From Rhodospirillaceae bacterium (GTDB taxonomy: Bacteria > Pseudomonadota > Alphaproteobacteria > MPNO01 > UBA2964), in assembly GCA_002709075.1 (NCBI GenBank), contig PAPV01000020.1, positions 1-64,000 on the forward strand: a stretch of DNA of 64,000 nucleotides, given 5' to 3'. The notes beneath the pieces are model-generated. The model was not told the origin of the DNA and ran no database searches. It was given only the letters and a program-made list of their open reading frames with translations. The position numbers and the translations under genes were made by a program. The first letter of the stretch is position 1; every line of letters starts with the position of its first letter. Positions 43,035-49,195 of this stretch are shown in pieces.

Positions 43035-45562
<2,528 letters not shown>

Positions 45563-45595: not shown

Positions 45596-46513
45596 GTGAC
45601 TCTATCTCAAGGAAATATTGGTTGTTCTGCAGTTAGCAGATCAGATGGTGGTGATGTTTTGGATTACGTGGCTTTAATGAAGCCGCGTGTCATGTCTTTG
45701 GTGGTGTTTACAGCGCTTTCGGGAATGTATATGGCTCCAGGTTCGTTGCATCCTTTCATGGCGTTTTCTGCAATACTTTGTATAGCGATGGCAGCCGGTG
45801 CTTCTGGTGCGATAAATATGTGGTATGATAGTGATATTGATGCTGTAATGTCTCGAACAGCCGACCGACCTGTCCCAGCCGGGCGTTTGGAAAGTGGAAC
45901 CGCACTAGCGTTTGGGAATTCTCTGGCTGTAGCATCGGTTCTTATAATGTGGTTCTGTGCTAACTGGCAAGCGGCCGCTTTTCTTGCCTTTACAATCTTT
46001 TTTTATGTTTTTGTCTATACAGTTTGGCTTAAACGCCGAACCCCCCAAAATATTGTTATAGGTGGTGCAGCAGGGGCATTTCCTCCCATGGTTGGTTGGG
46101 TTGCTGTTACCGGGGAGATTACTGTTGGTTCATTAGTCCTCTTTGCAATTATCTTTATGTGGACTCCACCCCATTTTTGGTCTTTGTCACTTTATTGCCA
46201 GGGAGAATATGAGAAAGCCGGTGTACCTATGCTCCCAGTGGTTTCGGGAGAAGAAGAAACCAGGCGCCAAATTTTATGGTATACGCTTGTTTTAGCTCCA
46301 ATCGGGGTCGCTCCAACCCTTATTGGAATGGCAAGTTGGTTTTACGGATCAATATCTGCCTTTATGGGAATTGTATTTCTAATTTTGGTATTGCGGCTCA
46401 GGAGAGATAAGTTGGAAAATTCGGCACGGCGTATTTTTAATTTTTCTCTTTTGTATCTTTTTGTACTTTTCGCGGTAATGATTTTGGACCGTGCTATGGG
46501 ATTTTCGAGTTAA
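45596..46513 (+). CDS. ctaB: protoheme IX farnesyltransferase (haem O synthase)
   Basis: 305-residue UbiA-superfamily membrane enzyme that farnesylates haem b for the oxidase. GTG start at 45596. The Asp-rich motif is NMWYDSDIDAVMSRTADRPVPAG, and TVWLKRRTPQNIVIGGAAGAFPPMVGW is the second signature. Nine or so hydrophobic segments. Location between coxA and ctaG is standard for alphaproteobacterial cox operons. Confidence 0.96.
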   Translation: MTLSQGNIGCSAVSRSDGGDVLDYVALMKPRVMSLVVFTALSGMYMAPGSLHPFMAFSAILCIAMAAGASGAINMWYDSDIDAVMSRTADRPVPAGRLESGTALAFGNSLAVASVLIMWFCANWQAAAFLAFTIFFYVFVYTVWLKRRTPQNIVIGGAAGAFPPMVGWVAVTGEITVGSLVLFAIIFMWTPPHFWSLSLYCQGEYEKAGVPMLPVVSGEEETRRQILWYTLVLAPIGVAPTLIGMASWFYGSISAFMGIVFLILVLRLRRDKLENSARRIFNFSLLYLFVLFAVMILDRAMGFSS

Positions 46514-46518
46514 ATAGC

Positions 46519-46653
46519 ATGACTAAAATAAAACTTACGGCCGAACAACAAAGAAAAAGAAAAAATCGTAATTTGGCGTTACTTATCGTGTTGTTTGGTC
46601 TTGTTGGGTTGTTTTATGGAATTACTATGATAAGGCTCGCAGGAGGAGCGTAG
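46519..46653 (+). CDS. 44-residue single-membrane-segment protein of the cox operon
   Basis: Short ORF from ATG 46519 to TAG 46651-46653: a basic N-terminus (MTKIKLTAEQQRKRKNRN), then one hydrophobic segment of about 20 residues and a short tail ending AGGA. A similar tiny protein is usual between ctaB and ctaG in Alphaproteobacteria, sometimes named CoxF, with an assembly role assumed but not shown. It starts 5 bases after the ctaB stop and its 3' end includes the AGGAGG that serves ctaG, so translation is probably coupled. Confidence 0.8.
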   Translation: MTKIKLTAEQQRKRKNRNLALLIVLFGLVGLFYGITMIRLAGGA

Positions 46654-46657
46654 AAAA

Positions 46658-47272
46658 GTGCGTGGATCGGGAAAAGTTCGTACTTTGTTGGGCATTGGAT
46701 TGTTGCTTGGTCTGATGACCGGTTTGACCGTTTACTCTGTAACATTGTACGAACTTTTCTGTTCTGTGACTGGTTACGGGGGAACGACTAAACGCGCAGA
46801 GTCTTCTCCTGATAAAATACTTAACAGAAAAATTACAGTTTTTTTTAACGCAGATACTAATTCTGGACTTGATTGGAATTTTAAACCCGTACAACGAAAG
46901 GTAAATTTGCGGGTGGGAGAAAAAGGTTTGGCTTTTTACGAAGCTCGTTCCACTTCTTCTAAAAGTGTTACGGGAACTGCGACATTTAATGTTACGCCGA
47001 TGAAGGCAGGACAATATTTCGTGAAGATTGATTGTTTTTGTTTTACAGAACAAACACTTGAGCCAGGTCAAACCGTTAACATGCCTGTGCAATTTTATGT
47101 GGATCCAAAAATCGCTAATGATCGCAATTTGGATGAGGTTGATACAATTACATTATCCTATACCTTTTTTCGTTCTGCAGAACAGAAATCAGTTGATCGT
47201 TCAAAGCCTAAATTTGTAGGTACAAAAAACGGATTCTCCTCTCATTTGGGAGAGAGAAGGGCGTTCAACTAA
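46658..47272 (+). CDS. ctaG: cytochrome c oxidase assembly protein CtaG (Cox11)
   Basis: 204-residue copper chaperone delivering copper to the CuB site of subunit I. GTG start at 46658 with AGGAGG at 46641-46646. One N-terminal membrane helix (about 8-30) precedes a periplasmic domain; the copper motif CFCF has Cys126 and Cys128, and Cys35 lies just after the helix in ELFCSVTGYGG. Order before coxC is standard. Confidence 0.96.
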   Translation: MRGSGKVRTLLGIGLLLGLMTGLTVYSVTLYELFCSVTGYGGTTKRAESSPDKILNRKITVFFNADTNSGLDWNFKPVQRKVNLRVGEKGLAFYEARSTSSKSVTGTATFNVTPMKAGQYFVKIDCFCFTEQTLEPGQTVNMPVQFYVDPKIANDRNLDEVDTITLSYTFFRSAEQKSVDRSKPKFVGTKNGFSSHLGERRAFN

Positions 47273-47291: not shown

Positions 47292-48152
47292 ATGAATGCA
47301 ACTACCAATAATTCGAGCTCTGATACTGAAGAACATAAACATCCTTGGCATTTGGTGGATCCAAGCCCTTGGCCAATATTAAGTGCATTATTTGGTGGGG
47401 TGCTTGCTGCTGGTGCAGTATTATACATGCATGAAGAAACCCTTTGGTTGATGCTTGTTGGTCTACTAGGCGTGTTGGTGGTTATGGCAGCGTGGTTTGC
47501 CGACGTGATAAAGGAAGCAACTCATCAGGGTTATCATTCTCGTCCAGTTCAGATAAGCATGCGTTATGGAATGGTTCTCTTTATAGCGTCTGAAGTAATG
47601 TTTTTTGTTGCTTGGTTCTGGGCATATTTTAACGGCGCATTGTTTCCGACTGAACAAATAAAATCTACGTGGCCGCCCCCCGGAATTTTGACCTTTAATC
47701 CGTGGGAATTGCCTTTTCTTAATACATTAATTTTACTGACATCTGGAGTCACCCTTACATGGGCGCATCATGCATTACTAGAAGGCAATAAAAGTCACCT
47801 GTTGCAAGGGCTAGGTGTTACTATACTTCTTGGTGTAATTTTTTCCTTTGTTCAAGCTTATGAGTACAGTCACGCTGCTTTTAGTTTTGAATTTGAGGAG
47901 GGAACTCCTGGAAAGGGGGGCATTTATCCAAGTACATTTTATATGGCTACCGGATTTCATGGTTTTCACGTAATTGTTGGTACGATATTTCTTATTGTGT
48001 GTTTTTTTCGTGCTCGAAAAGATCATTTCAAAGTTAGTCATCATTTTGGTTTTGAGGCTGCTGCTTGGTATTGGCATTTTGTCGATGTTGTTTGGTTATT
48101 TCTGTTTGTCGCTATTTATTGGTGGGGGGCTGGTACATCTGTTGGGCACTAA
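47292..48152 (+). CDS. coxC: cytochrome c oxidase subunit III
   Basis: 286-residue seven-helix subunit. HPWHLVDPSPWPILSALFG at the N-terminus, GMVLFIASEVMFFVAWFWA, THHALLEG-like THWAHHALLEG region, YMATGFHGFHVIVGTIFL and AAWYWHFVDVVWLFLF are all characteristic. The ATG at 47292 follows AGGA. It ends 6 bases before the broken DUF983 gene. Confidence 0.97.
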   Translation: MNATTNNSSSDTEEHKHPWHLVDPSPWPILSALFGGVLAAGAVLYMHEETLWLMLVGLLGVLVVMAAWFADVIKEATHQGYHSRPVQISMRYGMVLFIASEVMFFVAWFWAYFNGALFPTEQIKSTWPPPGILTFNPWELPFLNTLILLTSGVTLTWAHHALLEGNKSHLLQGLGVTILLGVIFSFVQAYEYSHAAFSFEFEEGTPGKGGIYPSTFYMATGFHGFHVIVGTIFLIVCFFRARKDHFKVSHHFGFEAAAWYWHFVDVVWLFLFVAIYWWGAGTSVGH

Positions 48153-48158
48153 ATTTGG

Positions 48159-48528
48159 ATGATTTTGTTATCAGAGGATAGGCAAGGATCTAAATCCCGA
48201 TGTGCTATTAAATCATATAAACACGCACTGTTTTTTAGGTATCCACAATGTGGTAACAGGCCATTGTACAACGGCATTCTATCAGTCAAAAAGACTTGTG
48301 AGAGTGAGCTAGACCTAAAAAATTATATAGGTGATGGTGTCTCAATTATAGGCTTTTTTTCTTGGATTTTTGTTGGTTCCGCTCGTACCATTGTTCGAGT
48401 GTCTTGTGAAGTTAAAACTTTGCGTGCATTTTATGATTTTGCCACCAATCATGACTCTCGTATCGGTAATCGTGTTAAGACCAGTAAAAGCTGCCTTGGT
48501 AGCACATCACTATAAAAGGCAATTTTGA
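48159..48528 (+). pseudogene. DUF983 family gene, frameshifted (apparent pseudogene)
   Basis: The frame from ATG 48159 matches the start of DUF983 proteins (FFRYPQCGNRPLYNGILSV, then LDLKNYIGDG) but runs into unrelated sequence after the T7 run at 48354-48360. The next frame, from CTT 48361 to TGA 48526-48528, continues the family: two hydrophobic segments, then VIVLRPVKAALVAHHYKRQF. Removing one T restores about 122 codons, the normal size. The zinc knuckle is also damaged: Tyr28 replaces the first Cys of the CPxCG pair, and the second Cys of the second pair is missing. Position between coxC and surf1 is where DUF983 normally lies. Sequencing error at the T run could explain the shift but not the lost cysteines. 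Confidence 0.75.
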
Positions 48529-48529
48529 T

Positions 48530-49195
48530 ATGATGATCAGTCGCCGCGTTGGTTTTGCAATTTTTACGCTAATTTCGGTCATAATTCTGTGTCTTCTTGG
48601 AATTTGGCAACTTAACCGGATGTCATGGAAAACGGAATTAATTACTAATATTGTCAAAGGCTTTGAAGCTACTCCTGTTGTGCCAAACTCTAACCTTGCT
48701 GAATGGAGACGAGTAGCTTTATCCGGCCAATGGCTCTCAGTTGATCCCATTTTTGTAGGTCCCATAAGTTTATCAGGACGTCTTGGATGGTACTCGGTTT
48801 CGGCATTTAGGCTTGTTTCTGGTAAAGTAATATTTGTAAATCGTGGATGGGTGGATCAGAAAAACAAGGCAAGTCTGGTCAATGGAGAGAAAACCAACCT
48901 TATTGGTGTTCTTCGTAGACCAAAAACTTCTGGGTTGTTCCTGCCAACGAATGATCAAGAAAAAAAACAGTGGTTGCGTATCTTACCAAAAGAATTCGCA
49001 CTAGCGCGCGATCTTGTTGATGTCGCACCTTATTGGGTTGAACTTACACAAATAAATAAAGAGAATTCAAATTTGTTCGTATTAGGTGGGTTGCGGCTAC
49101 CCCCAAATAATCATCTTCAATATGCGATCACTTGGTTTGCATTTGCTTTAATCTCTTGTATCTTCGGTATTCTATTTTGGATCAAAAATGAATAA
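48530..49195 (+). CDS. surf1: SURF1 family cytochrome oxidase biogenesis protein
   Basis: 221-residue protein with a membrane helix at each end (about 8-23 and 195-216), assisting haem a insertion into subunit I. Blocks LGIWQLNRMSWK, VFVNRGWV-like IFVNRGWVDQ, and PNNHLQYAITWFAFAL are family-typical. ATGs at 48530 and 48533 are both possible. It closes the cox operon and faces the nicotinate phosphoribosyltransferase gene with 2 bases between stops. Confidence 0.93.
   Translation: MMISRRVGFAIFTLISVIILCLLGIWQLNRMSWKTELITNIVKGFEATPVVPNSNLAEWRRVALSGQWLSVDPIFVGPISLSGRLGWYSVSAFRLVSGKVIFVNRGWVDQKNKASLVNGEKTNLIGVLRRPKTSGLFLPTNDQEKKQWLRILPKEFALARDLVDVAPYWVELTQINKENSNLFVLGGLRLPPNNHLQYAITWFAFALISCIFGILFWIKNE

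Follow-up and report, generated by a model that had tools for sequence, protein, structure and literature searches.

The gap of 377 bases between cox3 and SURF1 in the COX operon of the window (i.e., the whole stretch of 64,000 nucleotides that was analyzed) holds a DUF983 gene that changes its reading frame at a run of seven Ts. This raises the question of whether the gene is decaying, is decoded with a change of frame, or owes its broken frame to an error in the sequence. We consider it highly probable (about 0.88) that the window's DUF983 is a decaying pseudogene in an otherwise intact oxidase operon. In this group, the place between cox3 and SURF1 is usually taken by the gene of DUF983, a small protein that has four cysteines and a pair of hydrophobic segments. 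In the window's lineage, selection on this gene would have been lost, after which it would have gained an indel that alters the frame in a T-rich stretch, lost two of its four cysteines, suffered small deletions and ended up with a shorter tail, and the remaining genes of the operon would have stayed under selection. Judging from the nucleotides, a functional DUF983 product is probably not made.

Organization of the locus

The features of the locus are summarized in Table 1. The start of frame A is similar to the N-terminal half of DUF983 (YPQCGNRPLYNGILSVKKTC...GDG), and from the T7 run on the family sequence (FFLGFLLVPL...RPVKAALVAHHY) is found in the +1 frame, which is open from position 48352 to the TGA at 48526-48528. 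The PF06170 domain is thus not covered by a single open frame but split between frame A and the +1 frame. Both halves were scored separately with an HMM built from 19 intact DUF983 relatives, and the scores obtained indicate that neither match is due to chance. Regarding Pfam, the C-terminal half exceeded the cut-off of PF06170 (30.9 vs. 22.6 bits), frame A alone yielded no match, and a profile search of the whole genome found no second DUF983 over the Pfam cut-off. The coordinates and the HMM scores of both halves therefore agree with the first-pass annotation, which had described a DUF983 gene split over two frames at the T7 run in the cox operon.

Table 1. Coordinates of the COX operon genes and of the parts of the DUF983 remnant in the window
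Feature	Position	Strand	Remarks	Profile score
coxB	43035-43958		intact	
coxA	43955-45562		intact	
ctaB	45596-46513		intact	
ctaG	46658-47272		intact	
cox3 (COX subunit III)	47292-48152	+	intact, directly upstream of the DUF983 remnant	PF00510, 332.6 bits
Frame A ORF, 118 aa	48159-48515	+	ATG at 48159, stop TAA at 48513-48515; last ~50 residues out of frame	
DUF983, N-terminal half	48159-48353	+	frame A; degenerate zinc-ribbon region	28.2 bits (relatives' HMM)
T7 run	48354-48360	+	reading frame switches here by a net +1 (the same as -2)	
DUF983, C-terminal half	48361-48525	+	+1 frame; two hydrophobic segments and RPVKAALVAHHY tail	PF06170 (positions 31-85), 30.9 bits; 41.1 bits (relatives' HMM)
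SURF1	48530-49195	+	intact, directly downstream of the DUF983 remnant	PF02104, 123.3 bits

The same annotation had stated that one T fewer restores the gene. This holds as far as an open frame is concerned, but a different indel fits best: the read-through with one T fewer scored 79.4 bits against the relatives' HMM, whereas that with two extra Ts scored 84.4 bits, i.e., the alignment gains 5 bits when two bases are taken to be lost. Because the two-base-loss reading is collinear with the relatives across GDGASVFVIFLLGGLVVPL, a net change of -2 is slightly preferable to one additional T.

The four cysteines of the family (CPxC...CxxC) are kept in all 19 intact relatives. In the alignment to these relatives the first Cys of CPxC corresponds to Tyr28 of the window's DUF983 (YPxC), and the fourth Cys (the second of CxxC) is gone together with its codon. 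The reported loss of one cysteine from each pair was thereby confirmed, and intact relatives with the same losses, which would have indicated a normal divergent gene, were not present among the 19. Another codon is gone ahead of GDG, so that the N-terminal half has two one-codon gaps in addition to the T7 indel. Where the relatives end in NLRHKYDE, the window's DUF983 has RQF-stop; the untranslated TAT GAT GAT behind this stop seems to be what is left of YDE. Compared with DUF983 (PF06170) of alphaproteobacterial COX operons in general, the position between cox3 and SURF1, the LYNG, GDG and RPVKA motifs and the two hydrophobic segments are the same, whereas the broken frame, the presence of only two of the four cysteines, the shorter tail and an HMM score of about 40-50% of the normal value are different.

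The gap between ctaB and ctaG is occupied by an ORF of 44 aa (46519-46653) with one hydrophobic segment (MTKIKLTAEQQRKRKNRNLALLIVLFGLVGLFYGITMIRLAGGA), which resembles the small membrane protein that COX operons of alphaproteobacteria commonly encode.

DUF983 in related genomes

The family sample comprised 13 genomes, including the window's own, and intact DUF983 genes were found in seven of them (G002, G004, G005, G006, G008, G009 and G010). G001, the only other genome of the same genus that was compared, has no DUF983, and its SURF1 follows ~66 bases after cox3; a weak DUF983-like match in G001 (8.8 bits) was dismissed, as it lies inside SURF1 in a different frame. In G003 a C-terminal scrap alone is left (VSLVAYHFQNLRHEYDE, 12.2 bits), and G011 and G012 have weak remnants only (HLKNLC.NYD-like, 3.7 and 5.7 bits), which is a softer call. 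DUF983 of G007 is frameshifted. In this genome cox1 is also distributed over three frames (G007:C5:165000-184900), which suggests an indel-rich assembly, and for this reason the frameshift in its DUF983 is probably an assembly error as well. In g6, another genus of the same order, DUF983 is frameshifted in G014 and absent between cox3 and SURF1 in G021, so that this genus shows the same pattern as that of the window, i.e., one frameshifted copy and one genome without DUF983.

From gene presence, at least four separate losses of DUF983 appear to have occurred in the order: in the window's genus, in G003, in G011/G012 and in g6. Several independent breaks and losses among relatives point to ordinary gene decay without a hidden recoding signal. 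The sister genome without DUF983 and the broken or remnant copies elsewhere thus bear out the decay that had been proposed. Within the class, DUF983 is carried by 270 of 389 genomes with a completeness of at least 95%, and cox3 is still present in 31 of 80 sampled class genomes that are devoid of DUF983, which indicates that DUF983 is dispensable for keeping the COX operon. With ordinary bacterial pseudogenes caused by homopolymer indels the window's DUF983 shares the indel in a T run, the other disabling changes and the deletion in a sister genome, and nothing notable differs.

Sequence conservation of DUF983 and its neighbors

The read-through DUF983 scored 79-84 bits with the relatives' HMM, whereas the 19 intact relatives scored 167-215 bits. 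Its identity to the intact genes of the same family was 35-40% (about 36%), as opposed to 56-62% (about 60% being normal) for the intact DUF983 of G002, a genome at a comparable distance. The corresponding identities were 55-57% (window's genome) vs. 55-59% (G002) for CtaG, and 72-76% vs. 77-78% for COX3. Of the residues found to be invariant in DUF983 (30 in total, defined from 14 intact genomes), 20 are kept in the window, whereas every intact genome keeps 91-100% under leave-one-out. Regarding codon positions 1 and 2, 27% of the tree's DUF983 change was assigned to the window's tip (10-90% range 23-34%; fixed tree, 25 bootstraps), compared with 11% for ctaG, 13% for cox3 and 20% for SURF1; the excess was present in both halves of DUF983. 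The ratio of change at positions 1 and 2 to that at position 3 was noisy (ctaG was also near 2), and identity, HMM score, conserved residues and branch share were therefore used instead.

The excess divergence of DUF983, with CtaG and COX3 normal, argues for a decaying pseudogene and for more than a base-calling slip. Since whole codons seem to account for two of the three indels, and 20 of the 30 invariant residues are left, selection has either ended fairly recently or only been relaxed. SURF1 of the window keeps a similar share (69%) of otherwise invariant residues, yet is unbroken, and fast divergence by itself is thus no proof of decay.

Origin of the frame change

An error of base calling or assembly within the T run of a divergent but working DUF983 would agree with the position of the break on a homopolymer and with the probable assembly error behind the similar frameshift of G007. 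We nevertheless regard it as quite improbable. The assembly that contains the window has a completeness of 99.89% and consists of 26 contigs, and runs of at least seven identical bases occur 70 times in the window, 66 of the 69 others lying inside ORFs of at least 100 aa (this evidence is indirect, as such an ORF may itself be a fragment, like frame A; ORFs of this size cover 93.5% of the window). The absence of DUF983 from the sister genome and a best-fitting repair of two bases rather than one also speak against an error, which would moreover leave the lost cysteines, the lost codons and the shorter tail unexplained. The first-pass annotation had invoked the cysteines in the same sense when it suggested decay with the rest of the operon intact, and the losses in relatives and the substitution rates agree with that suggestion.

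That the T7 run is a functional recoding site, operating by transcriptional slippage or programmed frameshifting, is highly improbable, even though U7 is a slippery string and the frameshifts of G007 and G014 have the same direction and are at most a few codons away from this site. A -1 shift on U UUU UUU leads to LFFLDFCWFRSYHCSSVL-stop, which is in the wrong frame and not DUF983; RNA structure downstream of the run is at chance level (z -0.18); and the intact relatives have no conserved run. G000, G007 and G014 have +1 frameshifts at almost identical codon positions, but a recoding site deduced from this was rejected, G007 being a probable assembly error and G014 being decayed in other places as well. 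Across the class, the DUF983 matches listed have single open frames and do not show such a frameshift pattern. Slippage at the T run, which had been named as another possibility, is further disfavored by the length of the run, which is seven only, whereas published work on bacterial slippage centers on runs of ~9 A or T (PMC1088944), by the many other runs located within long ORFs, and by the full-length read-through product, which would still be devoid of half of the conserved cysteines. A new role for the frame A protein or for the truncated C-terminal part is extremely improbable: frame A is open for 118 codons and the spacing between cox3 and SURF1 is kept, but the excess at codon positions 1 and 2 affects both DUF983 halves, and no family is matched by frame A past the shift.

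SURF1 and the role of DUF983

SURF1 evolved fast in the window's genus, with a stem branch shared with G001 of ~0.84-1.02 and root-to-tip distances of 2.5-2.9, compared with 1.7-2.0 in the intact family members. Neither CtaG nor COX3 is accelerated in this genus. DUF983 and SURF1 might act in the same step of oxidase assembly, the loss of DUF983 allowing or forcing SURF1 to change, but we consider this unlikely; the link is weak because the other losses (G003, G011/G012 and g6) show no or modest acceleration.

DUF983 has been called COX4-like (PMC4013037), and among solved structures none resembling it was found. From gene order only, a role in oxidase assembly might be guessed. The window's case alone is an ordinary pseudogene. 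DUF983 has, however, been lost naturally several times in lineages that retain the oxidase genes, this case being one of them, and such natural knockouts could help to probe the role of this little-studied protein.
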